Positions 4,666-52,378 of a stretch of 52,378 nt of DNA are shown one piece after another; position 1 is the stretch's first letter, and each line of letters starts with the position of its first letter. This DNA comes from a virus. The translations under genes were made by a program, and so were the position numbers. Location of the stretch: the IMG/VR virus record IMGVR_UViG_3300032087_002048, positions 1 through 52,378 of that record, one strand, 5' to 3'. The notes under the pieces were generated by a model. It saw nothing but the letters and a program-made list of their open reading frames with translations, made no database searches and was not told the origin of the DNA.

Positions 4666-4689
4666 CAGTCTAAAACAAATTTAAAAGTT

Positions 4690-5028: not shown

Positions 5029-5051
5029 GGTAATTCGTATCTTAATTAATG

Positions 5052-5079
5052 ACCCTCACTACTACGGTGGGGGTTTTTT
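5052..5079 (+). terminator. Rho-independent terminator after the SSB-like gene
   Basis: An 8-bp stem (ACCCTCAC with GTGGGGGT, one G-T pair) with a 7-nt loop is followed by a T run. It lies 24 bp after the SSB-like stop. No clear promoter is seen before the next gene at 5101, so some read-through is likely. Confidence 0.8.
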
Positions 5080-5100
5080 AACCTCTAAATTCAACTTAAT

Positions 5101-5268
5101 ATGTTCAAAGTAAAACTAAAAGACGGCAGGTCTTATTCAGTAACAGAGGCACTTGCCGATTCAATGAGAGAAAACATTGAAAACAAAACAGACAAAGTGG
5201 TGTACCATGATAAACTTAATGGTTCATTTATGATTAAAACGTCTGACATACAATCAATAGAGTTATGA
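5101..5268 (+). CDS. Hypothetical small protein, 55 aa
   Basis: A small ORF reading MFKVKLKDGRSYSVTEALAD at its start and ending DIQSIEL. The strand pattern (FKVKLKDGRSY, FMIKTSDIQSIEL) resembles a small Sm-like or SH3-like barrel, though no family is recognised. Its TGA overlaps the ATG of the next gene (ATGA at 5265), and it fills an otherwise empty gap, which supports it as genuine and co-translated with the replisome-organiser-like gene. Confidence 0.6.
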   Translation: MFKVKLKDGRSYSVTEALADSMRENIENKTDKVVYHDKLNGSFMIKTSDIQSIEL

Positions 5269-5885: not shown

Positions 5886-6355
5886 GTTACGATGACAACC
5901 CTTGTAGATTAGCTAACATTATTGTTAGAAAAGCATTCGCAGGTAAGACCGATAAAGCAGGTGTGCCTTACATTAATCACCTTGTAACAGTTGCACAAGG
6001 TGCAAGAGGATATATTTCTTATGGACATCAAGTTGATGACAAGGACATAGAATGCACAGCACTATTACATGACTTGCTTGAAGACTGCCCAGAATGGACA
6101 GAAGGTGCGCTTAGAACGCTGTTCAGCGAGACTGTGGTTGATGCTGTAGTAGCATTGACAAAGAAACCACAGAGCGAATCTTATAGAGAATACATACTAC
6201 GTGTAGCAGTCAATCCTTTAGCAAAGATTGTTAAGTTGGCTGACCTAAAACACAACATGGATATAACTCGTCAAAGGTCATTCAATGACGTAGACATTGA
6301 AAAACTACAGAAGTATCACCAAGCATATATAACCCTTAAAAATATCAATTCATAA
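5882..6355 (+). CDS. HD-domain phosphohydrolase, RelA/SpoT/MESH1-like
   Basis: 157 residues, an HD domain throughout. His33 (YINHL), the HDLLED motif at residues 63-68 and KLADLKHNMD near 117-126 match the metal-binding and substrate-binding motifs of the (p)ppGpp hydrolase branch of HD proteins (SpoT hydrolase domain, MESH1). No synthetase domain is present; the length fits a small alarmone hydrolase. Known members remove the 3' pyrophosphate of (p)ppGpp, and MESH1 also acts on NADPH. In a phage it may blunt the stringent response or alarmone-type defence; that is inference. It overlaps the genes on both sides. Confidence 0.75.
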   Translation: MSYDDNPCRLANIIVRKAFAGKTDKAGVPYINHLVTVAQGARGYISYGHQVDDKDIECTALLHDLLEDCPEWTEGALRTLFSETVVDAVVALTKKPQSESYREYILRVAVNPLAKIVKLADLKHNMDITRQRSFNDVDIEKLQKYHQAYITLKNINS

Positions 6356-8310: not shown

Positions 8311-8317
8311 AAGTAAG

Positions 8318-8355
8318 AGATATGAAAGACCACGAAAAGTATGCGGAGGAAGTAA
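8318..8355 (+). repeat. 5' cassette repeat, copy 1
   Basis: A 38-bp direct repeat covering 'agat' plus the first 34 bases of the gene at 8322. It is identical to 8643-8680. Confidence 0.85.
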
Positions 8356-8528
8356 AGAATGACATTAAAAATATCCCTTTGTGTGGGGTAGATGACTTAG
8401 CAATCTATGTAATTCAAAAGCAGATAGATTTAGTGGATGAAATATCAGTACAATCAATGGCAGAGGTTGTGGTTAGAAAACATAAGCTACTTACAAAAGC
8501 AATAGAACACCTAAAACAGAAGATATGA
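8322..8528 (+). CDS. Small protein of the MKDHEKYAEEV / EHLKxKI mosaic set, 68 aa
   Basis: Starts MKDHEKYAEEVKNDIKN and ends KAIEHLKQKI. The middle is helical (IQKQIDLVDEI). The first 34 bases are identical to the start of the gene at 8647 and the last 26 are nearly identical to the ends of the two following ORFs, so the gene belongs to a locally duplicated family. Its stop overlaps the next start (ATGA at 8525). Function unknown. Confidence 0.6.
   Translation: MKDHEKYAEEVKNDIKNIPLCGVDDLAIYVIQKQIDLVDEISVQSMAEVVVRKHKLLTKAIEHLKQKI
8503..8528 (+). repeat. 3' cassette repeat, copy 1
   Basis: A 26-bp element encoding EHLKQKI and the stop. It differs at a few bases from copies 2 and 3 (8625-8650 and 8903-8928). 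Confidence 0.8.
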
Positions 8529-8650
8529 ATGCAGAAGATATTATTTGTCCACATTGCGGTTATTACTGCTTAGGAAATGGAGGAATATTTTGTATAGACA
8601 AACCATTTTTTGTACAACAAGAACTAGAACACCTAAAGACAAAGATATGA
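8525..8650 (+). CDS. Tiny cysteine-containing protein of the mosaic set, 41 aa
   Basis: Reads MNAEDIICPHCGYYCLGNGG at its start and ends LEHLKTKI. The CPHCGYYC segment looks like a zinc knuckle. The C-terminal tail is shared with the two flanking proteins while the rest is unrelated, so this is a chimera within the cassette. The start overlaps the upstream stop and its own stop overlaps the next start. Confidence 0.5.
   Translation: MNAEDIICPHCGYYCLGNGGIFCIDKPFFVQQELEHLKTKI
8625..8650 (+). repeat. 3' cassette repeat, copy 2
   Basis: A 26-bp element encoding EHLKTKI and the stop, identical to copy 3 at 8903-8928. Confidence 0.85.
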
Positions 8651-8680
8651 AAGACCACGAAAAGTATGCGGAGGAAGTAA
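8643..8680 (+). repeat. 5' cassette repeat, copy 2
   Basis: Identical over 38 bp to 8318-8355. It overlaps the end of 3' repeat copy 2, so the two repeat types are joined here. Confidence 0.85.
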
Positions 8681-8928
8681 GGGAGTTGTTTAAGGATGAT
8701 ATTTGCGAATGCGATTGTGAGGATAAAGAACATCAACACGATTCATTGAGTGGGTTTTGTGCAATTCATGCAGAAAAAAGAAAATCAAAATTAGCCATCA
8801 TCCACATACAAGGGCAGATAGATGAAATAAAAGAAGGAGTAAGATGGATTCATGGAGTATCAGAATACGCAGAAGGTAGGGTAGTATTTCTACAAAAAGC
8901 AATAGAACACCTAAAGACAAAGATATGA
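8647..8928 (+). CDS. Small protein of the MKDHEKYAEEV / EHLKxKI mosaic set, 93 aa
   Basis: The start is set at ATG 8647, where the repeat shared with 8322 begins; a longer frame from 8545 would overlap the 41-aa gene. The protein has the common N-terminus, then a Cys/His-rich segment (CECDCEDKEHQHD…GFCAIH) that may bind metal, then helices ending QKAIEHLKTKI. It is a longer paralogue of the 8322 product with an inserted middle. Function unknown. Confidence 0.6.
   Translation: MKDHEKYAEEVRELFKDDICECDCEDKEHQHDSLSGFCAIHAEKRKSKLAIIHIQGQIDEIKEGVRWIHGVSEYAEGRVVFLQKAIEHLKTKI
8903..8928 (+). repeat. 3' cassette repeat, copy 3
   Basis: A 26-bp element identical to 8625-8650. Together with copy 1 it shows that three consecutive small genes end with the same coded tail. 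Confidence 0.85.
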
Positions 8929-9059
8929 TGGAAAAACAAGATTTTATTAACAAAGAGAATTGCAGTCATCAGCTTAAACAAGGCTACCATGCAGAGGATT
9001 TTTGCGTGTACTGTGTAAAATGTGATTTAACCCTTAACGGAATAATATTAAAGACATAA
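8925..9059 (+). CDS. Tiny cysteine-rich protein, 44 aa
   Basis: Reads MMEKQDFINKENCSHQLKQG at its start, then HAEDFCVYCVKCDLTL. The spaced C-H and CxxCxxC residues suggest a small zinc-binding module. It overlaps the preceding stop by ATGA and lacks the EHLKTKI tail. The next ORF starts after the same AAGATATGAAA context seen in the cassettes. Function unknown. Confidence 0.45.
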   Translation: MMEKQDFINKENCSHQLKQGYHAEDFCVYCVKCDLTLNGIILKT

Positions 9060-9072
9060 AGGAAATAAAGAT

Positions 9073-9159
9073 ATGAAAAACATGAAATTACAAGCAAAAA
9101 TTGAATTAGTACTAATTGCCATTCTGTTTATTTGGCTGTTTATATTTTTTACCATTTAA
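9073..9159 (+). CDS. Tiny single-pass membrane protein, 28 aa
   Basis: MKNMKLQAKIEL followed by an almost purely hydrophobic stretch (VLIAILFIWLFIFFTI) that would span the membrane once. It lies between the mosaic set and the exported protein at 9172. Its small size makes the call uncertain, but the composition is typical of phage membrane microproteins. Confidence 0.45.
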   Translation: MKNMKLQAKIELVLIAILFIWLFIFFTI

Positions 9160-9171
9160 AGAAGAAGAATT

Positions 9172-9681
9172 ATGAAAAAACTATTGACAATCGCAATGTT
9201 ATTTGCAACGTGTGCAATTTTTGCACAAACCAGTTTCGCTATTGGAGCAGGTGTATTTGAACAGTCTGGAATTATAGGCGTAAGTCTAGGAATGCAGACA
9301 GAAGTAAACCATGAGTTTACTAGAAACTTTGGGGTGACAGGAGATTTCACCTATGCTAAGTTACAAGATGGTGATGGTAGAGAAGTCTATCTTATGGGTG
9401 GGTTAATAGACACGCCTGATGGTTCTACCTTTAATCAAGCATCTATGCTTGTAACGTATAAGATATTCACCTATGACGAGAGAATGGCAATTCGTATAGG
9501 AGCAGGTGGTGCGTATCAGAACTGGGAAGACATTTACCCAACAGCGCAGTTAGACCTTATTGCTTTTGCGGATGCAAACTTTTACCCTTATCTTTCATGG
9601 CAACCAGTATTTAGAGGTGGCTTTGGTGAAGGTGATGGATGGTCACATACAGTAACAATAAACCTAGCAATTAAGTTATGA
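9172..9681 (+). CDS. Exported outer-membrane beta-barrel-like protein, 169 aa
   Basis: The start MKKLLTIAMLFATCAIFAQ is a strong Sec signal peptide. The mature chain alternates short amphipathic strands with glycine turns (SFAIGAGVFEQ, GVTGDFTYAKLQ, MAIRIGAGGAYQNW, HTVTINLAIKL), which looks like a small outer-membrane barrel of about eight strands; the final strand ends in hydrophobic residues. No specific family is claimed. As an early-arm exported protein it could alter the host surface, for example by masking the receptor. The stop overlaps the next gene start. Confidence 0.6.
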   Translation: MKKLLTIAMLFATCAIFAQTSFAIGAGVFEQSGIIGVSLGMQTEVNHEFTRNFGVTGDFTYAKLQDGDGREVYLMGGLIDTPDGSTFNQASMLVTYKIFTYDERMAIRIGAGGAYQNWEDIYPTAQLDLIAFADANFYPYLSWQPVFRGGFGEGDGWSHTVTINLAIKL

Positions 9682-9953
9682 AAGTAAAACTCTTAAAGAA
9701 ACTGAAAAAGAAATTCCCTATCAAATACTACAAACTTAGGGATGAAGTAAAAGATTTTCAAACTGGTGAGTTAATCAAAGGAAGGTTTGTTGTTGTTAGA
9801 CCTTATTATCTTTCAGAAAGTGGTAGGAAAAATGTACACATATACTGTTCAACCAAGAAGGATGCTCTAAGAAACCGAAGGGAGATTATCTTTGATGAAT
9901 TGAACTACCAAAGAAAAAGAAAGGAACGCCAATATAAAACTATTACAATATGA
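9678..9953 (+). CDS. Hypothetical basic protein, 91 aa
   Basis: Very basic (KVKLLKKLKKKFPIKYYKLRDE…RRKR-type composition) with beta strands in the middle (GRFVVVRPYYL) and a lysine/arginine-rich C-terminus. It may bind nucleic acid. It overlaps both neighbours by 4 bp (ATGA), so it is part of the same translational chain as the dNMP kinase. No family recognised. Confidence 0.55.
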   Translation: MKVKLLKKLKKKFPIKYYKLRDEVKDFQTGELIKGRFVVVRPYYLSESGRKNVHIYCSTKKDALRNRREIIFDELNYQRKRKERQYKTITI

Positions 9954-10450
9954 AGTTATTAATTATAGGTCATGCAAGACATGGCAAGGACACAGTAGCG
10001 GAAATAATTGGTCAGCACTTTGGATTAACATATAAAGCATCCTCTCAGGCAGCAGCCGATATATTCATATATGATGAACTTAAAGAGAAGTATGGTTATG
10101 AAACACCAGAAGAATGCTTTAAGGACAGAATGAATCACAGGGCTGAATGGCACGATATGATTTGTGAGTACAACAAAGATGACAAGGCTAGATTAGCTAA
10201 AGGTATTTTAGAACATGCTGACATCTACGTAGGAATGCGTTCTAGCGCAGAGATAAAGGAATCTATAAGACAGAGCCTATTTGACTACGTTATATCTGTT
10301 TACGACCCTAGAAAACCATTAGAAGGTAAAGACAGCTTTGACATAGACATCTGGGTGGATGCAGACATTGTTATCCCTAACGCAGGTAGCCTGTGGGATT
10401 TAAGAGTGAAGGTTCATAAAATAATCAAAGGACTTAGTTATGGTAGATAA
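9950..10450 (+). CDS. Deoxynucleoside monophosphate kinase
   Basis: 166 residues. The P-loop GHARHGKDT at residues 7-15 after a beta strand (MKLLII) is the signature of phage deoxynucleotide monophosphate kinases of the T4 gp1 type. ADIFIYDEL and GMRSSAEI follow where substrate and LID contacts lie. The enzyme converts dNMPs to dNDPs with ATP. It is shorter than T4 gp1 but carries the core. It stands with ThyX and ribonucleotide reductase, forming a dNTP supply set. The 3' end overlaps the next gene by 11 bp. Confidence 0.75.
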   Translation: MKLLIIGHARHGKDTVAEIIGQHFGLTYKASSQAAADIFIYDELKEKYGYETPEECFKDRMNHRAEWHDMICEYNKDDKARLAKGILEHADIYVGMRSSAEIKESIRQSLFDYVISVYDPRKPLEGKDSFDIDIWVDADIVIPNAGSLWDLRVKVHKIIKGLSYGR

Positions 10451-10904
10451 CTTAGGTAAGAAGATAATAAACGACCTTAAGGAAGGTAAGAAGTATGAGG
10501 AACTTTTCATGCAGAAGTTACGTGAGAGTGGTGTCGAGTGTAAGCGTTCAAGCAAAATGCAAGACATATACGACCACATAGACGTTATAGACGAGAAAGG
10601 AATCACATACGATGTCAAAGGATATAAGGGGTTTCATTTTGTCTGGTTAGAGTTTATGAATGTCAGAGGCAATAAAGGTTGGATGAAGGGCAGAGCAGAT
10701 AGAATTGCTTTCTGGCTTAACGACAAGTTTTATGTTGTCAATAGACAAACGCTGTACGATTGGTGCAAGGAGCATTTACCTAACGTACCTCCACAATACG
10801 ACAAGAGTATGTTCTATACACCTTACAGACGTAAGGGCAGAAAGGATATACTTATCAAAGTAAAAGTAGAAGATGTAACTAAACACGCAATATTAATATT
10901 ATGA
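10440..10904 (+). CDS. PD-(D/E)XK nuclease-like protein, 154 aa
   Basis: The segment around residues 44-60 (YDHIDVIDEKGITYDVKG) has the spacing of a nuclease core: Asp48 in HID, Asp58 and Lys60 in YDVKG, with Glu20/21 upstream. It is followed by FVWLEFMNVRGNKGW and a helix, as in Holliday-junction-resolvase-like folds. A specific family is not recognised. The basic C-terminus (YRRKGRKD) could contact DNA. It is placed within the nucleotide metabolism genes and may recycle host DNA; that is inference. Confidence 0.55.
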   Translation: MVDNLGKKIINDLKEGKKYEELFMQKLRESGVECKRSSKMQDIYDHIDVIDEKGITYDVKGYKGFHFVWLEFMNVRGNKGWMKGRADRIAFWLNDKFYVVNRQTLYDWCKEHLPNVPPQYDKSMFYTPYRRKGRKDILIKVKVEDVTKHAILIL

Positions 10905-11557
10905 CAAAAGTAGAATTAGTAACTAAGACAGAGGGTGTTGAGAGATATATGTCTCTAACGTCAGATGAAATTGTAGAGGCTGTTGCTAGACATGGTGAAA
11001 TTAAAGATGCAGGTAAACTAATCAAGTATCTTATCAAGCACAAACATTGGTCACCACTAGAGCATGTACACTTTACGTTTCGCATAGAGACAGCTAGGGA
11101 TGTATCAGCACAGATGATGCGACACAGAAGTTTCCATTGGCAAGAGTTATCACAACGTTATGATGTGATACAGGAGTTCATGCCTATAGAATTACGTAAG
11201 CAAGGCACAACTAATAGACAGGTTGGTGATGAAGTATTTGACCCCGAATATGCTCGTCATGGGGTTTCATGTAGTCAAGCTATTGAATTACATATTAAAA
11301 AGACCCAAGAGATGTATGATAATCTAATTAGAGAAGGTGTTGCCAGAGAATGCGCTAGACGTATATTACCAATGTGTGCAAAGACAGTTGTACACATGAC
11401 TGGTAACCTTAGAGATTTCTTAGGGTATCTTAATGTACGCTGTGAAGCAGGTACTCAAAAAGAACATAGAGAAGTTGCTATGGCTATAGGTAAAGCCTTA
11501 GAGAAAGAGTTTCCACCTCTTGCTGAATTAGACTGGAAGGAAGGAGGATTTATGTAA
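10901..11557 (+). CDS. thyX: Flavin-dependent thymidylate synthase ThyX
   Basis: 218 residues, the normal length. The ThyX motif RHR-x7-S appears as RHRSFHWQELS at residues 74-84, followed by QRY. HKHWSPLEHVHFTFRIE before it matches the N-terminal FAD-binding region and LRDFLGYLNVRCEAGTQKEHRE matches the C-terminal conserved block. ThyX makes dTMP from dUMP using FAD, NADPH and methylene-tetrahydrofolate. It overlaps the upstream gene (ATGA) and shares a TAATG with the next. Confidence is high. Confidence 0.95.
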   Translation: MTKVELVTKTEGVERYMSLTSDEIVEAVARHGEIKDAGKLIKYLIKHKHWSPLEHVHFTFRIETARDVSAQMMRHRSFHWQELSQRYDVIQEFMPIELRKQGTTNRQVGDEVFDPEYARHGVSCSQAIELHIKKTQEMYDNLIREGVARECARRILPMCAKTVVHMTGNLRDFLGYLNVRCEAGTQKEHREVAMAIGKALEKEFPPLAELDWKEGGFM

Positions 11558-11703
11558 TGTTAAATCAAGAACGATATTTAGCAAAAGGTCACATAGAAGC
11601 ATATCTGTCTGACTGTAGAGAAAAGAACATTAACCCCTTGTGTATGAGATGCTTAAGGGAATATTTAGACAAACATTATGGAACAGATAGAGGAACACAT
11701 TAA
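11557..11703 (+). CDS. Hypothetical tiny protein, 48 aa
   Basis: Starts MLNQERYLAKGHIEAYLSDC and ends YGTDRGTH, with an NPLCMRCL segment giving a CxxC. It begins on a TAATG overlap with thyX and overlaps the next gene start at 11678 by 26 bp. The tight coupling supports a real gene; function unknown. Confidence 0.5.
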   Translation: MLNQERYLAKGHIEAYLSDCREKNINPLCMRCLREYLDKHYGTDRGTH

Positions 11704-11950
11704 ACTAATTAAACAATACTTTGGTGATGAACCACAATGCTACCTTGTAGCACTATTCTTAGCTACAGAGTTTAAGGGTGAGATATGGTACGATAATCAC
11801 CATTGTTTAACAAGAATAAAAGATAAGTTTTATGACAAGCATGGTCTATACGAAGGTAGTTTAAAGGACTTTTGTCCTCTTAAGAGATATGGTTTTAACC
11901 ATGATGCAGGACTTATGCAAGCACTAATAGAAAAACATTCATATGAATAG
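11678..11950 (+). CDS. Hypothetical protein, 90 aa
   Basis: Compact, mixed alpha/beta, aromatic-rich (EIWYDNHHCLTRIKDKFYDK). HH and Cys residues might bind metal, but no motif is secure. It overlaps the next gene by 8 bp. Placed within the nucleotide metabolism set; no family recognised. Confidence 0.55.
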   Translation: MEQIEEHIKLIKQYFGDEPQCYLVALFLATEFKGEIWYDNHHCLTRIKDKFYDKHGLYEGSLKDFCPLKRYGFNHDAGLMQALIEKHSYE

Positions 11951-12143
11951 AATAGAACAGTTAATTGAAGATTACCTTAAAAGAATTGAAACCACTGAAG
12001 AACTGATTGAGGAGAATGAATATTTAATCAAGGTAACTGTGTTTGCAAACTGTCGCCCTTTCTTTGATAAAAGAGCCAGATTAGAGACTAAACTAGAATG
12101 CTATAAATCCTTTATCGCTGAGTTACAGCGCATTGTAAATTGA
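11943..12143 (+). CDS. Hypothetical coiled-coil protein, 66 aa
   Basis: Mostly one long charged helix (IEQLIEDYLKRIETTEELIEEN…) with heptad-like leucine and isoleucine spacing, suggesting a small coiled coil. The stop at 12143 lies just before the promoter core at 12155-12162, and the -33 region overlaps the end of this gene. Function unknown. Confidence 0.5.
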   Translation: MNRIEQLIEDYLKRIETTEELIEENEYLIKVTVFANCRPFFDKRARLETKLECYKSFIAELQRIVN

Positions 12144-12162
12144 AGACTTTTCCGTATCTTTG
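12132..12162 (+). promoter_or_regulatory. Bacteroidota-type promoter for the RNR gene
   Basis: TATCTTTG at 12155-12162 is a perfect -7 core. ATTG at 12132-12135, 19 bp upstream, is a one-mismatch -33 element. The RNR start codon is 37 bp downstream of the core. Confidence 0.75.
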
Positions 12163-12198
12163 TAACCCCTTTTATTAACTAAACAAACACATAAATTA

Positions 12199-14097
12199 AT
12201 GATTAAACAACGAGAGGTTGCCTTTGGTGACTTGGGCTTAATAACCTATCTACGAACATATTCAAGAAAGAAAAAAGATGGCACAAAAGAATCCTTTTCT
12301 GATACGGTGGAAAGAGAACTACAAGGTGCTAAGAAACAATTAAAAGTAGACTTTACCCCAGAAGAAGAAGAATACTACAGATACATGCGACATGAAATGC
12401 TTGGCTCTGTAGCAGGTAGATTTATGTGGCAGTTGGGTACTAAGACAGTTGATAAGTTGGGGCTACCTAGCTTACAGAACTGTGCATTTACAGTAATTGA
12501 TACACCAATAAGACCATTTACGTGGGCTATGGACATGCTTATGCTTGGTTCTGGTGTTGGTTATTCAATTAAGAGAGAACACGTCTACAAGCTACCTAAG
12601 ATTCAGCGTAGGAAGGTTAAGATAGAGAACGTTAACCTAGCAAGTGCTGACTATATTGTTCCCGATACAAGGGAAGGATGGGTTAAGCTGTTGGGTAAAG
12701 TTCTTAAGTCTTATTTCTACTCTGGTGTAGGGTTTACTTATAGCACACAACTGGTGCGTGGTAAAGGAGAACCCATTGAAGGATTTGGTGGTACAGCATC
12801 AGGAGCAGCTATTCTTGTAGAGGGTATGCAACTTATATGTGGTGTACTGGATGCCAGACGTGGGCAGCAGATAAGACCTATCGATTGCTTGGACGTTATG
12901 AACATCATAGGCATGATAGTGGTTGCAGGGAATGTTAGACGTTCAGCGCAGATAGCTATTGGTGATTACGATGATTTAGATTTCCTTAAGGCTAAACGAT
13001 GGGATTTAGGTGGTGTTCCTAATTGGAGGGCAATGAGTAATAACTCTGTTGATATTATTGACTTTGATTCATTACCGCTAGAGTTCTGGGAGACTTATAA
13101 TCAAGGAGAGCCTTACGGTATGATTAACCTTGACCTTTCAAGGAAGGTAGGACGTTTAGGTGAAACACAATATCCTGACCCTGACGTAGAAGGTTATAAC
13201 CCTTGTGCAGAACAATCGCTTAATCCCTATGAAACATGCTGTCTAGCAGAAATGTATCTACCAAATATCAAGTCATACAAGGAGTTCAAAAAAGTAATGA
13301 CATTGTTATACAGAATTAACAAGCACTCGTTGGCATTAAAGTGTCACAACAAAGAGACAGAGGCTATTGTTAATAAGAATATGAGGATGGGCATTGGTAT
13401 TACAGGCGTTATGCAAGCTACAGAAGAACAGCTTAGTTGGTTGAAACCTGCTTATGAATACCTTAGAGCATACGATAAAGAATACTCAAAACACATGGGC
13501 TTTCCAGAATCTATTAAATTAACTACTGTTAAGCCATCAGGTACGCTGTCGTTGTTAGCAGGTTGTACGTCTGGTGTTCACGCTGCTACAGCAGGTAGGT
13601 TCTTCATCAGAAGAATAACAATAGCATCGGATTCTCCTCTTATTGAGGTAGTTAAGTCGCATGGTTACCATGTTGAGTATAAGAAAAACCTTGATGGTTC
13701 TAACGATTACTCTAGTATGATTGCGGAGTTTCCTTGCAAGTACCCAGAAGGTACTATAAGTGCAGAAGATATAGACATCATCGACCAATTAGAAATGGTT
13801 AAGTTCATGCAAACCAACTGGTCAGATAACTCTGTATCAGTAACAGCATACTACAAGAAAGAAGATATTCCAAGATTAAAGAAATACTTATCAGAAAACT
13901 GGCACGATAGTTTTAAAACGTTAAGTTTCTTACTATATACAGGTCATGGGTTTGTGCAAGCACCCTTTGAGCCAATTAGTGAAGAACAATATGAGTTCCT
14001 AGCAGCCAAAGTTAAACCTATTCTCTCAGCAGACATTAATGAGGAGGATATGGATGAACTAGGAGCGTGTGGCATCGGAGGATGCCCAATAAAATAG
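12199..14097 (+). CDS. nrdJ: Adenosylcobalamin-dependent (class II) ribonucleoside-triphosphate reductase
   Basis: 632 residues. Hallmarks of the monomeric class II enzyme: QNCAFTVIDTP with Cys95, GSGVGYSIKREHV, NPCAEQ with Cys336 and Glu338 (radical Cys and catalytic Glu), TCCLAE with Cys347/348 completing the redox pair with Cys95, and a C-terminal ACGIGGCPIK with Cys624 and Cys629 that re-reduces the active site. It is somewhat shorter than the ~740-residue Lactobacillus enzyme. It reduces NTPs to dNTPs and needs B12 from the host, but not oxygen. It has its own promoter and lies between thyX and the DNA polymerase. Confidence 0.9.
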   Translation: MIKQREVAFGDLGLITYLRTYSRKKKDGTKESFSDTVERELQGAKKQLKVDFTPEEEEYYRYMRHEMLGSVAGRFMWQLGTKTVDKLGLPSLQNCAFTVIDTPIRPFTWAMDMLMLGSGVGYSIKREHVYKLPKIQRRKVKIENVNLASADYIVPDTREGWVKLLGKVLKSYFYSGVGFTYSTQLVRGKGEPIEGFGGTASGAAILVEGMQLICGVLDARRGQQIRPIDCLDVMNIIGMIVVAGNVRRSAQIAIGDYDDLDFLKAKRWDLGGVPNWRAMSNNSVDIIDFDSLPLEFWETYNQGEPYGMINLDLSRKVGRLGETQYPDPDVEGYNPCAEQSLNPYETCCLAEMYLPNIKSYKEFKKVMTLLYRINKHSLALKCHNKETEAIVNKNMRMGIGITGVMQATEEQLSWLKPAYEYLRAYDKEYSKHMGFPESIKLTTVKPSGTLSLLAGCTSGVHAATAGRFFIRRITIASDSPLIEVVKSHGYHVEYKKNLDGSNDYSSMIAEFPCKYPEGTISAEDIDIIDQLEMVKFMQTNWSDNSVSVTAYYKKEDIPRLKKYLSENWHDSFKTLSFLLYTGHGFVQAPFEPISEEQYEFLAAKVKPILSADINEEDMDELGACGIGGCPIK

Positions 14098-14110
14098 GCT
14101 GTGGTAAGTC

Positions 14111-14139
14111 GGGGTAGTTGGTCTTTTGGTCGCTACCCC
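14111..14139 (+). terminator. Hairpin after the RNR gene, overlapping the next promoter
   Basis: GGGGTAG (14111-14117) pairs with CTACCCC (14133-14139) across a 15-nt loop, 14 bp after the RNR stop. The tract after it is A/T-rich but without a long T run (taattttg). The loop contains the -33 TTTG of the next promoter, so it may act as a weak terminator or attenuator. Confidence 0.5.
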
Positions 14140-14156
14140 ATAATTTTGTAACTTTG
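14125..14156 (+). promoter_or_regulatory. Bacteroidota-type promoter for the polymerase unit
   Basis: TTTG at 14125-14128 and TAACTTTG at 14149-14156, separated by 20 bp. It is followed 16 bp later by the ATG of the 52-aa ORF and then the DNA polymerase gene. Confidence 0.75.
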
Positions 14157-14171
14157 TAAAAATCAAATAAA

Positions 14172-14330
14172 ATGGAAAAAAGAATTGAAGACTTAGAAAA
14201 AGCTGTTGGTCTTATGACTGTAATACTAGAACAGCACTCACTCCAAATACGACACCTATTGGGTCACATAGATTCATTGGTAAAGTTATATGGTGATGAA
14301 AAACAGAATGATAACGAAAAATTCCTATAA
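14172..14330 (+). CDS. Small coiled-coil protein ahead of the DNA polymerase, 52 aa
   Basis: Reads MEKRIEDLEKAVGLMTVILE at the start and ends NDNEKFL; the heptad-like leucine pattern suggests a short coiled coil. It starts 16 bp after the promoter core and its TAA overlaps the polymerase ATG (TAATG), so the two are coupled. It may be a polymerase accessory or a translational leader; the function is unknown. Confidence 0.55.
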   Translation: MEKRIEDLEKAVGLMTVILEQHSLQIRHLLGHIDSLVKLYGDEKQNDNEKFL

Positions 14331-16393
14331 TGGACTACGTATACGACATTGAATTTTACCAGAATTTCTTTTGCGTTAACTTTAGAAGTTTCCCAGATGG
14401 GGAAGAAAAGATAACGTTTGAGATTTCTCAAAGAAAAGACCAACGTACAGAACTGTTGGCATTCTTAAAAACAGATGGGCTTAGGCTTATTGGGTTTAAC
14501 AATGTCGGTTACGATTATCCTGTACTACACATGCTTATAGAATCACCTGAGATTTCTCTACTTATATGGTGGAAGAAGATTCAGCGTTCTATCTTTAGCG
14601 GTAAGGAAAAAAGATTTATGGTTTGGGAATCACAAAGACATGTTTTCCAAATAGATTTATTCAAAATTAATCACTACGACAATTTGGCTCGTAGTACCTC
14701 CCTTAAATGGTTGGAGTTTACTAAGCGATGGTCTAAGGTACAGGATTTACCTATTAAGCCTGACAAGGTTCTACAGGAGCATGAAATGACAGATATTATC
14801 AGGTACTGTTGGAATGATGTTGACTTTACTTTTGAACTGGCAGAGGATTGTTGGAACGCTGTTAAGTTTCGTGAGAACATGAGCGAAGTACTTGGTCGTA
14901 ACGTTATGGATTATTCTGACGTTAAGCTAGGGGAATACCTTAATCAAAAGAAATACGAAGAACTTTCTGGTAGAAACTGGAAAGAGTTTAGGGAAGAACG
15001 TACATTCCGTAAGAATTACAGGATGAAAGATATTATTCCTGATGTCATTGAGTTTAAGACACCTGTGATGCAGAAATGGTTGGCTGAACTTAAGGAGAGG
15101 AGTTTTATAGATGATAAGCGAGATAAGTTTCGCTATGATATAATTATAGGGGAGGATGGTTTTGAAGAAGTACGTAGGAGAGATTACCCTATTACAGATT
15201 CTCAGATAGACAAAGACTTAAAACCATCGTTACTAGCACTTAAAACTATTGTTACTTTTGCTAAAGGCGGTCTTCACACAGTTGAACTACCTAGAGTAGT
15301 TACTAAGAAGGAAGGATGGCAGTTTATGGAAAAGGATGTTGCCAGTATGTACCCTCGTGGTATTGTGGTTGATGGTATTTATCCTAAACACTTAGGTAAG
15401 AACTGGAACGAAGGGATTGCCAACGCATACGATTACAGAAACAATGTGTTGAAACCCAAGATGAAAGAACTTGAATATGGTTCTAAGGAATATCGGAAGG
15501 TTGATGACGAACAGGCTGTGTACAAGTTAGCAATGAACGGTGGTGGATTTGGTAAGCTAGGGAGCGCATACTCATGGCAGTTTGACCCATTAGCTAAGTA
15601 TCAGGTTACTATGGGCTGTGAACTTAAGCTGTTGATGTTAATCGAACAGTTTGTTATACATGGTATTAAGATTGTATCTGTCAATACCGATGGTGTTGTT
15701 ATTCATTATCCTAAGAGCAAAGAGAGTACTGTTCTTGGTATTTGTAAATGGTGGGAAGAACTAACACAATTTGTATTAGAGGACACACATTACAGTAAGA
15801 TTGTATTCTCGTCTGTTAACCATTATATAGCTGTTATCTGTGACCCTGTTACAGGAGAAAAGATTAAGGTCAAATATAAGGGAGACTATGAGATAGATAA
15901 AGAACCCCATAAAAACAACAGCCAACGTATTGTTACTATTGCTCTTAGCGAATACTTTGTTAATGATATTCCTATTAAAGATATCATTGGTAAACTTGGA
16001 TATAGGTTCGACAACAACGGTAAAGAGGAGCAAGTTAGCATATATGATTACTGTATTGGTAAGAAGAAAACAAGTAGCTGTGAGTATTGGCTTGTAAACA
16101 AAGGTAAGGCTAAGTTACTTAAAGATAAAGTTATTCGATACTACGTATCAAAAATACCAAATCAATTACTTAAGAAGTATACCAAAGGAAAGCAAGAGGG
16201 TAGTTTTGAGAAAGTTAACGCAGGTTTTGATATAACCTTATTTATGGATTTCTTTACCCCAGAATCTGTAGGAGGGGTATATAAAATAGACAATAACTAC
16301 TACATTGGTGAATGCAAGAAAATCATCGACCCTATTCTTTCTGGTACAAGAATGACCGAAGGTGGTGCGCACGTCCAAACTAAATTGTTTTAA
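14330..16393 (+). CDS. DNA polymerase, family B-like, with 3'-5' exonuclease domain
   Basis: 687 residues. Exonuclease motifs: Asp6/Glu8 (YDIE), GFNNVGYDYP near 54-63, and YCWNDVDFT near 158-166. Polymerase motifs: A as DVASMYP starting at Asp336, B as KLAMNGGGFGK near 400, and C as VNTDG with Asp454. The motif order and the SxYP form indicate family B. In motif C the usual DTD reads NTD, so Asn452 replaces the first Asp while the second is kept; in motif B the usual NSxYG reads NGGGFG. It should be the replicative polymerase. Family A is the alternative, but its motif A form is absent. Confidence 0.8.
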   Translation: MDYVYDIEFYQNFFCVNFRSFPDGEEKITFEISQRKDQRTELLAFLKTDGLRLIGFNNVGYDYPVLHMLIESPEISLLIWWKKIQRSIFSGKEKRFMVWESQRHVFQIDLFKINHYDNLARSTSLKWLEFTKRWSKVQDLPIKPDKVLQEHEMTDIIRYCWNDVDFTFELAEDCWNAVKFRENMSEVLGRNVMDYSDVKLGEYLNQKKYEELSGRNWKEFREERTFRKNYRMKDIIPDVIEFKTPVMQKWLAELKERSFIDDKRDKFRYDIIIGEDGFEEVRRRDYPITDSQIDKDLKPSLLALKTIVTFAKGGLHTVELPRVVTKKEGWQFMEKDVASMYPRGIVVDGIYPKHLGKNWNEGIANAYDYRNNVLKPKMKELEYGSKEYRKVDDEQAVYKLAMNGGGFGKLGSAYSWQFDPLAKYQVTMGCELKLLMLIEQFVIHGIKIVSVNTDGVVIHYPKSKESTVLGICKWWEELTQFVLEDTHYSKIVFSSVNHYIAVICDPVTGEKIKVKYKGDYEIDKEPHKNNSQRIVTIALSEYFVNDIPIKDIIGKLGYRFDNNGKEEQVSIYDYCIGKKKTSSCEYWLVNKGKAKLLKDKVIRYYVSKIPNQLLKKYTKGKQEGSFEKVNAGFDITLFMDFFTPESVGGVYKIDNNYYIGECKKIIDPILSGTRMTEGGAHVQTKLF

Positions 16394-26693: not shown

Positions 26694-26709
26694 TATATTA
26701 TATTTGTAA

Positions 26710-26717
26710 CAAAGATA
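26710..26717 (-). promoter_or_regulatory. Promoter core for the GNAT/ejection gene unit
   Basis: The top strand reads CAAAGATA, giving TATCTTTG on the minus strand, 17 bp before ATG 26693. No good TTTG is found 19-20 bp upstream. The core sits in the short gap between the nozzle-like gene and the GNAT-like gene. Confidence 0.6.
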
Positions 26718-32655: not shown

Positions 32656-32663
32656 CAAAGATA
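32656..32663 (-). promoter_or_regulatory. Promoter core for connector/nozzle genes
   Basis: Top-strand CAAAGATA gives TATCTTTG on the minus strand, 20 bp before ATG 32635. A GTTG lies upstream at the non-standard spacing of 12 bp. It sits directly downstream of the terminator that closes the previous unit. Confidence 0.6.
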
Positions 32664-36193: not shown

Positions 36194-36201
36194 CAAAGAT
36201 A
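36194..36201 (-). promoter_or_regulatory. Promoter core for the scaffold/capsid unit
   Basis: Top-strand CAAAGATA gives TATCTTTG on the minus strand, about 31 bp before ATG 36163. The expected -33 region is a C-rich tract (36225-36232) instead of TTTG, so the element is incomplete. Confidence 0.55.
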
Positions 36202-42139: not shown

Positions 42140-42147
42140 CAAAGATA
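42140..42147 (-). promoter_or_regulatory. Promoter core for the packaging gene unit
   Basis: Top-strand CAAAGATA gives TATCTTTG on the minus strand, about 31 bp before ATG 42109. No clear TTTG appears at the expected upstream distance. Confidence 0.55.
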
Positions 42148-45494: not shown

Positions 45495-48400
45495 TTAATT
45501 TAATCCTATAGTTAATAATGTTTCTAATCTGTCCATTCTAGCTTCAAGTTCTTTAACTTTATTCTCTAACTGTATGTTCTTAGCTATTAATAGCTTGGTA
45601 TAGTTAACTGACTTATATCCGTCCTCAGCAGTCTTAACAAACTCAGGGTTTGTCTTCTCTAAGTCCTGTGCTATTACCCCTATATCATGCTTATCATTGT
45701 TAATCCAGTCGTACTCAACCCAGTTAGTTACTACCTTATAGTCCTCTAATGGTTTAATGTTCTTTTTCAGTCTCTCATCTGAAGACAGATTGAAATCCAC
45801 TGCGTACATATCCTCTGTAGCAGTTAACCTACCCAGAGATACATCAAATGTGAACCTAGTTGTAGTCACATCCCTGATAAGTAAATCTTTATCAGCGTCC
45901 ATATCCCAGTATGTGGTGGTGGTATTAGAGTATAAATCTCCTGCTCTGGTTGAAAGTCTCCCTGCTGTTGGATAATTGTCAGTTACGATATGGTCTTGTG
46001 TGCCAGTATATGATGCTTGGACGCTAACATTCCATCCTTGCTCCCAGTTAGATATGTTAGCTGTATATCCTGCAAATACATTGTAAATATAAGCCTGTGG
46101 ATATGCCCAGTTTTGAGTAGTTGTGCCTATCTCTACATAGTGATAAGAGCCATCAGAAGCAAATCTCACATTATAGTCTCTGTCATTCCTGCTTGTGTGT
46201 ACTGTAGCATTAGTATTTGCCCACCCAGATGCATGAGGATAGCCTATTATATCAACAGATACACTTTCACCACCACCATCTCCACCTGCATAGTCATTAA
46301 TCATGACACTAAATTGCACCATGTCATTTGTACTCCTTGCTGCAGTTGGTAGCCTTACCCTCATAGTACCTGTAACTGAAGACCCTGTTGAGTGTAAATT
46401 ACCACCACCTACTGAGAATAATTGAAAGGATGAGCCTATTGTATGCTCTGTACCTATGCCACCAAGTGACCCCTTTGTATATACTCCACCACCATAAAAT
46501 TCTGAGTCTCCATAACCCCTTATAATAGTATTAGTTAGGGCATCATCTGATAGAATTAAATACCCACCAGAGGCATTGGCTGCTAATTGTGCAAATTCAG
46601 TACTGGAATTATACACCTCTATTATGTCTGTGGCACTACTTGATGTCCATCTTAATATACCATTAGTTGTGTTATCTAATCTTCCTGTATTGTCTGAGGT
46701 ATCTCCATCTGTATTATGGAAATCAATATACCTACCTATCTCTATAACCCCACTTGTTTCATTTATTACGAAATTTCCCCACCTGTCTCCTGAAGCGGTA
46801 CGCCCAAAGTTATGAATCTTGTCTGCATCCAGACCACTGCCTATTCCATCATTTCCTTGATGCCATAGTTTGTTCCAGACCCATGTTGTGCCACTCTTAT
46901 GACCTGCATAAAGACCAGAGTTATTGTCTGAGTTGTTTCTCCAAAATGCAAAGTCTCTTGTCTCAGTTGCACCCCTTACATACATTCCTCCACCAAATGC
47001 AGAAGGATAGCCTGTTGAGCCTGTGGTATTTGAGGCTACTACAATAGAGTTTGCAGGTGCAGATACCCCAGAAAAGACAGTAGTTGCATCTGATACACTT
47101 GACCCTCTGTCTAATCCTATAAATGTTGTTCCAACTCCTGCATTGGCTGTAAGTAGTCCTGTTAAGACTGACGTACCTAAGACAGTCATTGCACCACTTG
47201 CTGTGACTTTGAAATTTGCACCACTACCTCCTACTTGAAATTCTCCATCTGTCCTAAGTATGCCAGAGCCACAGTAAATCCCATTTGTAAAGTCATTAGA
47301 AGGGTTAATCCTTAGCCATGCATCACTAAACTGGATTATGTTCTTATCGTCTCCTTTATAGTAGCTACCATCTGAGTTAACATTACCTGTGATATTAAGC
47401 CCTGCAGTTGTAGCGTCATAAGTTAATTGAGTACTTGAACCTAATGAGTCTCTCAGTATTAACATACCATCACCTGCTGTTGTGAACCATAGCCCTGAGT
47501 AGTTTACATTATTTGTATCTGCTATAAAAGCCCATTGATTGACTGCTGCATTAGGAATAGTTAACCGAGCATTAACAGTAAGGTCACCAGTCATTGTATC
47601 TCCTGCCTTTAGAACATAGTCAGAAGGTGTAAGGTTTCCCTCGTGATATATCTTATGTGCTAGGCTATTCTCTTGAAAAATTAAATCCCCATCTGCAATA
47701 CTCCTTATTCTAAGGTATGTATCTAATGTATTGACTGAATCTATACTACTACCACCTACTAAATAATTTCTAGCACTAGAGGAATTTCCTAAAAGGGTTC
47801 TCCATGTATTACCATCATTTTTAGCAGATACAAAACCATGCTCAACGATTAAATTCTCCTGAGTAGCCCCATTATCAATGATAAGGTCACCTGTCATAGT
47901 ATCTCCTGTGACAGCTACATAGTCAGTAAGTGTAAGGTTGCCAGTGTGATAGAACTCGTTCCAACTACCCCAGACACTTGCCTCTTCATGCCTAAAGAAT
48001 AGCCTATGATTTCTGCCACCTATCTGCTGACTGTACCCACTCCCTAAATCCTGAGAGAATATGTGGGAGTTTACGTCTATAGGTCTGTTTAGAGTTCCAC
48101 TAGTTGCATAGAACACACCTGTGCTGCTATTGTTGAGGTCACCTGATGTTGAGCCTGTGGTGATGCCTATAGCTTCAGATAGCTGCAGTCTAGCATCTAA
48201 TGCACTCTGTAGGTCTGTCTGTGATGATAGTGTACCTGTAATTGAACCCCATACTGCGCTTGTAGGTGGGGCTGTCCATTCAAGCCCTGTTGCTGTAACA
48301 GAGTTTGCTGTAAGGAGATAAGTGTTTGTTCCTACTGTAAGGTCTACCCAAGCAGACCCATTGTATACTAATATGTCTCCCTTAACTGCACCTGTGATTG

Positions 48401-50870
48401 TTGTATCTGTGAGACCGTCTAAGGTTGCTATTGAGGTTGCCCACTTAACTCCTGTGGATGTTGCGCTATCGGCTGTGAGTACGGTATCGTTTGCACCAAC
48501 GGTAAGGTCTACCCAAGAAGTACCATCAAACACAGCAACATCTCCTTTGGCAACTGCCGTAAAGTTAGTATCTGTAAGTGCATCGAATGTTTGAGCAACA
48601 CCTGCTGCTAATGGTGCTACTAAACCAAATCTATTGGCTGATAGAAATGTAGCATTATTTAAGTCTGTCTCTCCTTGTTGTACTACAAGATATCCCCTAA
48701 CTATAGCACTTCTAATACCTGCTAATGCTTCAAATTGCGCTCTAGGCACAGCATCTAGTGCATCCTCAAATCTTACATACTGGGCAGTACCATACTGTAC
48801 AAAAGTCTTATTAGAGTTTCCAAATAGTAATAATCTCTGTATTGTATATCTATTTGCGGTTACAGAGGCTAGTGTACCTGTACCAACATCATAACTATTT
48901 GGGTTTATTACTGTGGTTGCTGCATCAAAAGAACCGATACCGCTTCCATTATTATAAACATAATTGAATGTAAGACCAGTATCTATTGCTGTGGCAAATA
49001 CATGAGGAGCATCAACATTGGTCGTGAAGTTTCTTCCATAAGAAAATACACTACCTGCACTTTTGTTTAGGTTTAGGTTTACTCCATTAGGTGAATATAT
49101 ATTACCACTTATATTTAAGTCACCTATAGCCTTAGATAATTCTTTAAGTCCAGAACCAATAGCTTTAGTTGGTATTGTAATAGAGAATGCACCACCAATA
49201 TTTGTTTTATTTGAATGGTCTAATCCACCTAAGAATATAAGACTTCTTAATTCTTCGTTTGTAAAACTAGTCTGCTGTACTATAGCACCTGCAGCATTGA
49301 TAGCAATATCTGTTGCAAATTGAGTGGCTAGGTTAGTAACTGTTTGGGCTGTAAATGCTCCCCAAGATACACTTGTGGTAGTAGGAGGTGATGTACTGTG
49401 GTCTACAATTATACCAGTACCTGCTGATATGTCAAACTTAGTAGTATCTACATTAATACTTAATACTCCACCAGAATTAAGACCTGTTGATAGCATCTCT
49501 AGGGTGGGTACTATAGTTTCTATCTTATCATATAAAGCATTCTTTGTTGGTACTTCTAAGGATGCATTCCAACCTACTCCATAAACTTCGTCAGGTACAG
49601 TAACATCTAGGCTAAAGGTTATAGCCCCTAATACTGTTTGAGTACTCCCTAGATTCATTAACTCCGAACCTTTGTAAAACCATTTATCTGCACTAATTGA
49701 GTAAGTAATACCCTGTCCACCAAATAACCTAAGAGAGAAGTCATTAATGCTATCCCAATCAAAAGTCATTGTATCAGTACCTGCGTATACGGTATTCCTT
49801 ATATCAACTCTTGACGCTTGTTGTATTTCAAACCCATTCATGTTGATATTACCTGTCATTGTACCACCACCTATAGGTAGGTATAACCCATCATGGTCAC
49901 CCCATTGATAAGCTGCATCCCATGAGTTTATATCTGCTGTAGTAACACCAAATACGTCAGATGCAATAAATACAGGGTCTGTCTCTGCGGTCAGATACCC
50001 TGCCACAGCATGGTTACCCCATGTATATGCTAAATTCCATGTTCCAATTAATACGCTAGTAACTGCTGCTGCATCTGATGCAAGGAATACAGGGTCGCTT
50101 TCTGTAAAAGATGTTAGATACCCTGCACTTGCATGGTTTCCCCACCCAAACGCTGTATTCCAGTTAGTTGAGTTGTCTGTAAGATATGATATAGTGCCTG
50201 TAGTAGACTTAACTATACCAGTACCTGATAGCGCAGCTTGATACCCTGCTACAGAGTGGTCACCCCATCCATAGGCTGTTGTCCAGTTTGTTACGTCTGG
50301 TGCTGTTACAGCCCCTACAGGCGATGCTAAGAATACTGGGTCTGTCTCTGTATAGATTGATGGTACACCTGCAAGGTCAAATACCATACTATATGTAGTG
50401 GCATCAATTAAAGAGTTACCCCCTACAAAGTTGGTAACGTTTATTGTGAATGTGTCATCTAGGTTATCTACAATACTTGATATTGCAAAGTAAAATACCT
50501 GTCCTACGACAGATGCTTTAAATACTCTAAGTACAAAACTAGTTGGTTGGTCATCTATTACTTCCAGTAAAGATGTAATATCAATACCGTTACCATCGAA
50601 TTTGTTTAATGTAATAGAAGTAATGGCTGTTGCTGCGGTTTGATTACCATTGGTAACAAAATAGCCTGCATCAAATTCATCTAAGTCTGGGTCTGTAGCA
50701 TCTGAGAAAGTATACTCTATAGATGCTAGGTTAAGTCCAGTTTTGAATGTAGAGAAAATACTACCTAAAGGGTAGTTCCTTGTAACGTTTATGTTATCTG
50801 CATCTGAACCAATTACAAAGTCATCAAGACTTAGGTTGCTATCAAATGCGTATGTTTCAATTCTTGCCAT
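45495..50870 (-). CDS. Large tail fibre with C-terminal Peptidase_S74 intramolecular chaperone, 1791 aa
   Basis: N-terminal anchor (MARIETYAFDSNLSLDDFVIG) shared with the 654-aa fibre. Residues ~190-335 hold four copies of a ~50-residue repeat ending in a W..AY.WGDH..AGY motif; a later pair of repeats reads VAVFDGTSWVDLTVG / ILVYNGSAWVDLTVG. The C-terminal ~95 residues are an S74 chaperone with SDERLKKNI (Ser1697-Asp1698, the self-cleavage dyad), IGVIAQDLE and a terminal coiled coil. The chaperone should trimerise and fold the fibre and then cut itself off. This is probably the main host-range determinant. Confidence 0.85.
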   Translation of the reverse strand: MARIETYAFDSNLSLDDFVIGSDADNINVTRNYPLGSIFSTFKTGLNLASIEYTFSDATDPDLDEFDAGYFVTNGNQTAATAITSITLNKFDGNGIDITSLLEVIDDQPTSFVLRVFKASVVGQVFYFAISSIVDNLDDTFTINVTNFVGGNSLIDATTYSMVFDLAGVPSIYTETDPVFLASPVGAVTAPDVTNWTTAYGWGDHSVAGYQAALSGTGIVKSTTGTISYLTDNSTNWNTAFGWGNHASAGYLTSFTESDPVFLASDAAAVTSVLIGTWNLAYTWGNHAVAGYLTAETDPVFIASDVFGVTTADINSWDAAYQWGDHDGLYLPIGGGTMTGNINMNGFEIQQASRVDIRNTVYAGTDTMTFDWDSINDFSLRLFGGQGITYSISADKWFYKGSELMNLGSTQTVLGAITFSLDVTVPDEVYGVGWNASLEVPTKNALYDKIETIVPTLEMLSTGLNSGGVLSINVDTTKFDISAGTGIIVDHSTSPPTTTSVSWGAFTAQTVTNLATQFATDIAINAAGAIVQQTSFTNEELRSLIFLGGLDHSNKTNIGGAFSITIPTKAIGSGLKELSKAIGDLNISGNIYSPNGVNLNLNKSAGSVFSYGRNFTTNVDAPHVFATAIDTGLTFNYVYNNGSGIGSFDAATTVINPNSYDVGTGTLASVTANRYTIQRLLLFGNSNKTFVQYGTAQYVRFEDALDAVPRAQFEALAGIRSAIVRGYLVVQQGETDLNNATFLSANRFGLVAPLAAGVAQTFDALTDTNFTAVAKGDVAVFDGTSWVDLTVGANDTVLTADSATSTGVKWATSIATLDGLTDTTITGAVKGDILVYNGSAWVDLTVGTNTYLLTANSVTATGLEWTAPPTSAVWGSITGTLSSQTDLQSALDARLQLSEAIGITTGSTSGDLNNSSTGVFYATSGTLNRPIDVNSHIFSQDLGSGYSQQIGGRNHRLFFRHEEASVWGSWNEFYHTGNLTLTDYVAVTGDTMTGDLIIDNGATQENLIVEHGFVSAKNDGNTWRTLLGNSSSARNYLVGGSSIDSVNTLDTYLRIRSIADGDLIFQENSLAHKIYHEGNLTPSDYVLKAGDTMTGDLTVNARLTIPNAAVNQWAFIADTNNVNYSGLWFTTAGDGMLILRDSLGSSTQLTYDATTAGLNITGNVNSDGSYYKGDDKNIIQFSDAWLRINPSNDFTNGIYCGSGILRTDGEFQVGGSGANFKVTASGAMTVLGTSVLTGLLTANAGVGTTFIGLDRGSSVSDATTVFSGVSAPANSIVVASNTTGSTGYPSAFGGGMYVRGATETRDFAFWRNNSDNNSGLYAGHKSGTTWVWNKLWHQGNDGIGSGLDADKIHNFGRTASGDRWGNFVINETSGVIEIGRYIDFHNTDGDTSDNTGRLDNTTNGILRWTSSSATDIIEVYNSSTEFAQLAANASGGYLILSDDALTNTIIRGYGDSEFYGGGVYTKGSLGGIGTEHTIGSSFQLFSVGGGNLHSTGSSVTGTMRVRLPTAARSTNDMVQFSVMINDYAGGDGGGESVSVDIIGYPHASGWANTNATVHTSRNDRDYNVRFASDGSYHYVEIGTTTQNWAYPQAYIYNVFAGYTANISNWEQGWNVSVQASYTGTQDHIVTDNYPTAGRLSTRAGDLYSNTTTTYWDMDADKDLLIRDVTTTRFTFDVSLGRLTATEDMYAVDFNLSSDERLKKNIKPLEDYKVVTNWVEYDWINNDKHDIGVIAQDLEKTNPEFVKTAEDGYKSVNYTKLLIAKNIQLENKVKELEARMDRLETLLTIGLN

Positions 50871-51462
50871 TAATGTAGTTTATGATTCCAGTATATATCA
50901 TCGAACCTAAGTCTCCTTGAAAGCGAGGGTCTTTAAGTTTAACGAAATCAGGTTTGAAATCAAAAAAACCACACTCAATCAATATTGCTGTGCAATTTGT
51001 ATTACGTAGTACGAAGAAATTAGATTCTTTTAAACCCCTATCTCGCATTCCTGCTCGGTGTACAGCTAATCTAGCCATTGCTCTAACTTCTCCTGCAAGT
51101 TTATCACTTTCTGTTTCTCCTACGCTCGTAAATATCTCAAATCCACCTGCGTTATGAGATGGAGATGCGTTACAATGCACAGATACAAAGATAGTACTTT
51201 TTGGGTCAAGTTCGTTGGCTATCTCAACTCTTTTTTTCAATGAAAGGTCTGTAGACTCATCTACTCCGACAGTTAAGACAACATTAAGATTTGGATGTTC
51301 TTTAAGGCAATTATATATTTGCTCCCCTATTTGACGATTAAGCACACCCTCATGAGCGACTGTACCATCGTCATAGGTGTGCATCTTTTTAGGTGCTGTG
51401 GTGTAGTTTCCATCCTCGTCTATACCACCGTGTCCGAAGTCGAGGACTACGTTTTTAATCAC
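50857..51462 (-). CDS. N-acetylmuramoyl-L-alanine amidase endolysin (Amidase_3)
   Basis: 201 residues starting at a GTG (51462) that overlaps the upstream TAG. Zinc ligands are visible at His11 (GHGG), Glu38 (HEG) and His96 (SVHCN), and the catalytic Glu at 163 (LIECGF). The whole chain is the catalytic domain; no cell-wall-binding domain or signal peptide is seen, so release depends on the holin. It cuts the bond between MurNAc and the L-alanine of the peptide. It overlaps the large fibre gene by 14 bp. Confidence 0.9.
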   Translation of the reverse strand: MIKNVVLDFGHGGIDEDGNYTTAPKKMHTYDDGTVAHEGVLNRQIGEQIYNCLKEHPNLNVVLTVGVDESTDLSLKKRVEIANELDPKSTIFVSVHCNASPSHNAGGFEIFTSVGETESDKLAGEVRAMARLAVHRAGMRDRGLKESNFFVLRNTNCTAILIECGFFDFKPDFVKLKDPRFQGDLGSMIYTGIINYINGKN

Positions 51463-51824
51463 TAATCAGATAGGTTCACTCCTATTGAATAAGTAACTGC
51501 TGTACCGTTATTCTTGGTAGCTACAACTCTAAATGTATCTGGTAAGAAATCTGCTGCTGAGACATTAGCTGCTACAGGAGTGTAATCCCCAACAGTATAT
51601 GTAGTAAGAGCGTTTGCTGCTAAAGCTGCTGACGTTAGAATATTATACCAACTTCCACTTGCTGCATCATAACCATCTATTGTTATTGTAACTGTTGCTG
51701 CACCTGCGCCTGCTGTAATATTAACAATAAACTTACCATTTGATAAGTTATTATCATTAACTGTAAATGTTTCCGTAGCTGTTCTGGCTGCACTTTCAGC
51801 TATTCTGATGTTTGATTTAATCAT
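51462..51824 (-). CDS. Hypothetical beta-rich protein between holin and amidase, 120 aa
   Basis: Beta-sandwich-like with Ala/Thr/Asn-rich strands (TETFTVNDNNLSNGKFIVNITAG, TVTITIDGYDAASGSWYNIL, FRVVATKNNGTAVTYSIGVNL). No signal peptide. It overlaps the holin gene by 8 bp and the amidase by one base. It could be a minor virion or head-decoration protein rather than a lysis gene; composition fits phage structural proteins. Confidence 0.5.
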   Translation of the reverse strand: MIKSNIRIAESAARTATETFTVNDNNLSNGKFIVNITAGAGAATVTITIDGYDAASGSWYNILTSAALAANALTTYTVGDYTPVAANVSAADFLPDTFRVVATKNNGTAVTYSIGVNLSD

Positions 51825-52308
51825 TTCCTTTATCTTCTGGGTTAATTGTTTTAAAAAGTTTATCTATAATTGTACTCAGTCCATTTCTTACTGCATGTAA
51901 CAATCTGGTTATTATATCTTCGTTTTCTGTTTCTTTTCCTTCTTTAATACTAATAATATTATTTACTATAGAGAATGCCTCTGCCACAACAACTATATTC
52001 AGTATGGCTGTTACAAACCACGTAAAGTCAAAACTCAATGCTTTTGCTGTCAGGGCTAACACCATTGGTATAATCAATACCGATGTTTTTGTTACCAACC
52101 CCCACATTAATAATTTAAAACTAAGTTTATGTTTTAGCTTTATTGCTTTAATTATACCAAAAATGGTATCTATTGCCATTAATGCCCCTAGTATCTTAAC
52201 TGTATCTACATTTATGTCCAAGAAAACAAACACACCGTAGACGAACATTTTTACTGCTCCGAACCAATCTGTTACTTTGCTTGCTGCATTCATCATCCAA
52301 TCTCCCAT
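51817..52308 (-). CDS. Holin, phage_holin_4-like, 163 aa
   Basis: Four hydrophobic segments: AVKMFVYGVFVFLD, KILGALMAIDTIFGII, MWGLVTKTSVLIIPMVLALTA, and FVTAILNIVVVAEAFSIV. The LMAIDTIFGIIKAIK part matches the 'DxxtGi.kA' core of the toxin-secretion/phage-lysis holin family (phage_holin_4). The C-terminal ~40 residues are charged and cytoplasmic. It is the first gene of the leftward arm and is followed by the amidase. It should form the membrane lesions that free the amidase. Confidence 0.75.
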   Translation of the reverse strand: MGDWMMNAASKVTDWFGAVKMFVYGVFVFLDINVDTVKILGALMAIDTIFGIIKAIKLKHKLSFKLLMWGLVTKTSVLIIPMVLALTAKALSFDFTWFVTAILNIVVVAEAFSIVNNIISIKEGKETENEDIITRLLHAVRNGLSTIIDKLFKTINPEDKGND

Positions 52309-52345
52309 AGCTTTTAAAAAAGTCGCTTTCCTGTAAAGTAAAGTC

Positions 52346-52378
52346 TTTGTTTATAATTCTGTATCTTTGTACAAAGGT
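52346..52378 (+). promoter_or_regulatory. Divergent promoter region at right edge
   Basis: Rightward: TATCTTTG at 52362-52369 is a perfect -7 core; TTTG at 52346-52349 is 12 bp upstream, shorter than normal. Leftward: top-strand CAAAGGT at 52372-52378 would be the core TAnnTTTG on the minus strand if the base beyond the window is A. The two overlap in the palindrome CTTTGTACAAAG (52365-52376). The leftward core would serve the lysis and virion arm. Confidence 0.6.

Follow-up and report, generated by a model that had tools for sequence, protein, structure and literature searches.

Face-to-face -7 boxes between lysis and regulator genes of a flavobacterial phage, read as a probable compact bidirectional sigma-A promoter

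The divergent gap and its surroundings

The window analysed here, the whole 52,378 nucleotides of the linear virus record IMGVR_UViG_3300032087_002048, ends on its right side just beyond the first gene of a leftward unit. This gene encodes a holin (51817-52308, minus strand; phrog_13191, E=2e-22; PF05105) and is followed on the same strand by a 120-aa ORF with no family match (51462-51824), an endolysin of the amidase type (50857-51462; phrog_435, E=2e-36), and a 1791-aa ORF (45495-50870), which probably encodes a tail fibre or another structural protein, since short stretches of its DNA match tail-fibre and structural genes of phages.

The last bases of the window, TATCTTTGTACAAAGGT (52362-52378), are nearly self-complementary around a perfect 12-bp palindrome, CTTTGTACAAAG (52365-52376), as the sequence-only reading had described, and this centre takes in two opposed promoter cores and the 2-bp TA spacer between them. 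The rightward -7 core, TATCTTTG (52362-52369, plus strand), fits the flavobacterial sigma-A box, TAnnTTTG at -12 to -5 (PMC9723704), and its predicted start lies near 52374. The leftward core, TACCTTTG (52372-52378, minus strand), has a predicted start near 52367 and shows seven of its eight bases in the window, the eighth, an A on the plus strand, falling past the edge. It had been argued that the leftward core would be a product of chance unless the base after 52378 were A; this base is A in two relatives, G001 (locus L026) and L019, thus the leftward box is complete as TACCTTTG, and the opposed cores read TATCTTTG-TA-CAAAGGTA in both phages, with TAnnTTTG present in both directions. The exact 17-mer matches 22 IMG/VR contigs, most of them probably by chance given the size of the collection, and only L014/L026 and L019 were used as true relatives.

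Perfect 12-bp palindromes occur in the window at chance frequency (20 seen, 16.9 expected) and the palindrome per se was ruled out as a signal. Strict face-to-face TAnnTTTG pairs, with boxes no more than 4 bp apart, were seen twice against 0.065 expected per 52 kb, namely at 52362-52378 and at 26699-26717. The second pair, TATATTTG-TAA-CAAAGATA, separates co-directional leftward genes, and the core directed rightward would be antisense to a 1321-aa gene.

The sister phage G001 (IMG/VR 3300031841_002893; loci L026 and L214-L216), a record of 48,533 bp, shares 97-99% identity with the window and overlaps it at both ends, window 1-14980 corresponding to G001 14980-1 and window 50242-52378 to G001 37748-35613; together they imply a genome of ~73 kb, of which ~20.6 kb is absent from the window. 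L019 is a more distant relative, with a holin 76% identical. In both phages the element is flanked by the holin on the left and an 87-aa gene on the right, a layout found across the family. The rightward island consists of this 87-aa basic protein (phrog_6437) and then a 169-aa MarR-like winged-helix protein (phrog_17028), and a Pfam search with the two proteins gave no usable match. The AlphaFold model of the 169-aa protein is a winged helix (mean pLDDT 86) whose best Foldseek matches are nearly all of the MarR family, with modest scores (best E 0.0036, TM ~0.45), and weak profile matches point to MarR/Rot and to phrog_12817, a 'transcriptional regulator'.

Beyond these two rightward genes, G001 returns to leftward genes, including those of GroEL and GroES, and therefore the element is a divergent gap inside the leftward arm. 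The earlier reading put it between the two arms of the genome, which is incorrect, the arm junction lying at ~24.9-26.4 kb in G001 and the element at 35.6 kb, so that the two are ~9-11 kb apart, with the junction further right in window orientation. The junction (locus L215) comprises ~1.5 kb without long ORFs, holds repeated ATCGATGAAA-like stretches, and is possibly an origin or an early promoter region. Elsewhere in the window, direct repeats of 42-46 bp at 8310-8928 (copies at 8310/8635 and at 8487/8609/8887) surround small ORFs downstream of the primase/helicase, with further copies in G001; Rfam gave no match to them. When L019 5728-5760 is compared with L026, the two are highly identical through the island as far as the palindrome's edge, beyond which identity falls towards the holin, as would be expected had the island been swapped as a cassette.

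Retention in related phages and occurrence in cellular genomes

An alignment of the 169-aa protein gave 46 loci which, together with Maribacter phage Panino, whose host is M. halichondriae, and MW202828, make 48 loci of the winged-helix family in 17 clusters at 70% identity. Upstream of the winged-helix gene, or of the island, 7/17 clusters have a strict pair (0.03 expected) and 11/17 a relaxed pair (0.18 expected), almost always within a short divergent gap, and in most distinct elements the flanking ORFs on both sides begin within a few tens of bases. The opposed -7 cores noticed 2 bp apart in the window are supported, and many related phages keep them in the gaps between divergent genes. 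Since the clusters are related by descent, these counts show retention under constraint and not independent origins. The rightward core TATCTTTG recurs in L019, L026, L029, L030, and Panino. The element reads TATCTTTG-TA-CAAAAGTA in L029, TATATTTG-TAGA-CAAAGATA in L053, and TAACTTTG-TA-CAAAATTA in L037, and takes the form of the perfect 16-bp palindrome TATCTTTGCAAAGATA in L030, L047, others, and Panino, where it occupies record positions 66225-66240; the letters of the -7 box stay constant across relatives, and the nn positions and the spacing between boxes (0, 2 or 4 bp) vary. Other clusters (the L039 group and L043) carry a back-to-back pair, CAAAGATA-N13-TATCTTTG, instead of the face-to-face one. 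Back-to-back divergent boxes upstream of the winged-helix gene were seen in L039, L040, L042, L043, L045, L046, and L076, the form in L043 reading TATCTTTA.

It could be argued that only one core works, most likely the leftward one, and that the core facing it arose incidentally from an A-rich leader. TACAAA or CAAA is common after the -7 boxes of these phages, and A-rich leaders after TTTG can supply half of the symmetry for free; several relatives combine a perfect left-pointing core, TATCTTTG, with a degenerate partner (TATATTTA, TATTTTTA), and the strict pair at 26699-26717 stands between co-directional genes. However, a full opposite TAnnTTTG in 7/17 clusters, when 0.03 would be expected, argues against a mere by-product, and this explanation is considered rather improbable. 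No other TAnnTTTG core was found for the rightward gene in the short gap.

A search of cellular genomes with the exact 16-mer TATCTTTGCAAAGATA gave at least 119 matches, and among the matches listed 94 of 119 belong to Bacteroidota and 50 of the 68 intergenic Bacteroidota sites lie at divergent junctions. For comparison, divergent junctions account for 38% of single TAnnTTTG sites and for 26% of intergenic points drawn at random; the palindrome's share does not clearly exceed that of single TATCTTTG sites (16/30, 53%; p=0.06). The 100 proteins flanking the cellular sites among the matches listed, which include ribose-phosphate pyrophosphokinase, dihydrouridine synthase, and acetate kinase, fall in 86 families, thus the element does not go with any single regulator. 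On the arms of the cellular palindromes, a -33 TTG on both sides, sought as an indication that both arms are active, gave only a weak signal, at N19, N20, and N23. In 148 Flavobacteriales genomes, exact strict pairs are face to face in 2 genomes, tandem in 5, and back to back in 11, and a general host device was rejected given the rarity of the face-to-face form (2/148). The same back-to-back element, CAAAGATAGTATCTTTG, occurs in eight Flavobacteriales genomes (G029, G043, G055, G064, G073, G096, G104, and G112), where it probably marks one conserved locus.

Autoregulated divergent operators of MarR-family proteins are a known class, and the palindrome could be the operator of the adjoining MarR-like protein, which as a dimer would sit on its own promoter and control one or both directions. 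As in such operators, the palindrome lies between divergent genes, over the MarR-like gene's promoter; a winged-helix regulator is encoded beside it, as indicated by the structural model, with its modest scores, and by gene order, and seven phage records each contain the exact palindrome a single time, at the promoter of the winged-helix gene. In contrast to MarR-family operators, the half-sites show no fixed dyad, their spacing being 0, 2 or 4 bp and their constant letters those of the -7 box. Moreover, the element is unchanged while the regulator diverges to ~40% identity, the back-to-back variant retains the promoters and loses the palindrome, and the same 16-mer stands between unrelated cellular gene pairs. 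The variable spacing and these unrelated pairs lower the standing of a regulator-specific operator, and the occurrence of the 16-mer between unrelated divergent genes favours a generic promoter pair. An operator as the explanation of the palindrome thus seems unlikely, and an operator role could possibly coexist with a promoter function.

The missing -33 TTG and the timing of the two units

In a survey of 33 promoters from the window, G001, Panino, and L019, a TTG lies exactly 20 bp upstream of TAnnTTTG in 19. Under a post hoc grouping, TTG at N19-21 accompanies 20/22 non-structural promoters against 2/9 structural-region promoters (p=0.0004), and the latter, mostly without TTG, possibly form a -33-less late class. 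The structural-region promoters are those at window 32656-32663, 36194-36201, 42140-42147 (minus strand), and 26710-26717 (minus strand), together with those of the Panino structural genes. Unlike the large majority of non-structural promoters, the element lacks a TTG at N19-21 on both sides in the window/G001 and in L019, as do 27/28 sides of the palindromic elements examined, and each core may therefore be weak alone. The TTTG at 52346-52349 (plus strand) sits 12 bp upstream of the rightward -7 box, off the spacing of 19-21 bp seen for TTG in most promoters.

In phi38:1 and the elemo phages, the homologues of the 87-aa and 169-aa genes share the orientation of structural genes, and phi38:1 gp080, one of these homologues, is annotated as a structural protein. 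Because of this co-directionality and of the cores without -33 TTG, both flanking units are probably late, which argues against the proposal that the element is a switch between early (rightward) and late (leftward) transcription of the two genome arms. The two cores indeed could not be occupied together. However, mutual exclusion alone does not make a switch, since competition in the E. coli bidirectional promoters that have been tested appears only under strong activation of one direction (PMC12825309). Furthermore, the element sits inside the leftward arm, the rightward unit comprises two genes and is not the replication arm, and both cores resemble the 7/9 structural-region promoters without TTG. 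The switch between arms was rejected on the gene order around the element in G001; it is unsupported by this order, by the structural homologues, and by the -33-less cores, and is considered very improbable indeed.

A switch of direction within the late programme may be imagined instead, in which the MarR-like protein, acting alone or as a co-activator for -33-less late promoters, would bind the symmetric element and set the direction in which polymerase is loaded. This possibility is regarded as doubtful; if true, it would trade the synthesis of a structural protein and a regulator against lysis and fibre expression.

A predicted two-way promoter of the Bacteroidota form

The explanation preferred here, to which a probability of about 0.65 is given, is that the element functions as a compact bidirectional sigma-A promoter, for which transcription either way is predicted. 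The two TAnnTTTG boxes, face to face and only 2 bp apart, would therefore share one melting region. Polymerase loaded in one orientation would start near 52374 and transcribe rightward into the genes of the basic, virion-like 87-aa protein and the MarR-like protein, and polymerase in the opposite orientation would start near 52367 and transcribe leftward into the holin, endolysin, and fibre genes. From the 2-bp spacing, opposed polymerases would be expected to exclude each other; the start sites and the two-way activity are likewise predictions from the core sequences.

In E. coli, bidirectional promoters arising from -10 symmetry are established, with starts commonly 18, 10 or 23 bp apart (PMC12825309). 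As in the symmetric -10 promoters of Warman et al. 2021 (cited in PMC12825309), the phage element combines opposed cores, a common melting region, and divergent genes; the two predicted starts are separated by a few bp, and a polymerase bound in one orientation would keep out a second. Unlike those promoters, it consists of two full TAnnTTTG boxes, 0-4 bp apart, in a phage, and has a predicted start distance of ~7-9 bp compared with 18. Both phage cores fit the -7 consensus, as do flavobacterial sigma-A promoters (PMC9723704). Thus, the element is best read as a two-way promoter of the E. coli kind in its Bacteroidota form.

Well-studied bidirectional promoters use only -10 boxes of the TATAAT type. 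The element considered here is short and conserved, is built from the quite different -7 box of Bacteroidota, and lies in phages between lysis and regulator genes. It would show the reach of promoter symmetry in compact divergent control, and would allow the competition between polymerases to be tested in Bacteroidota.
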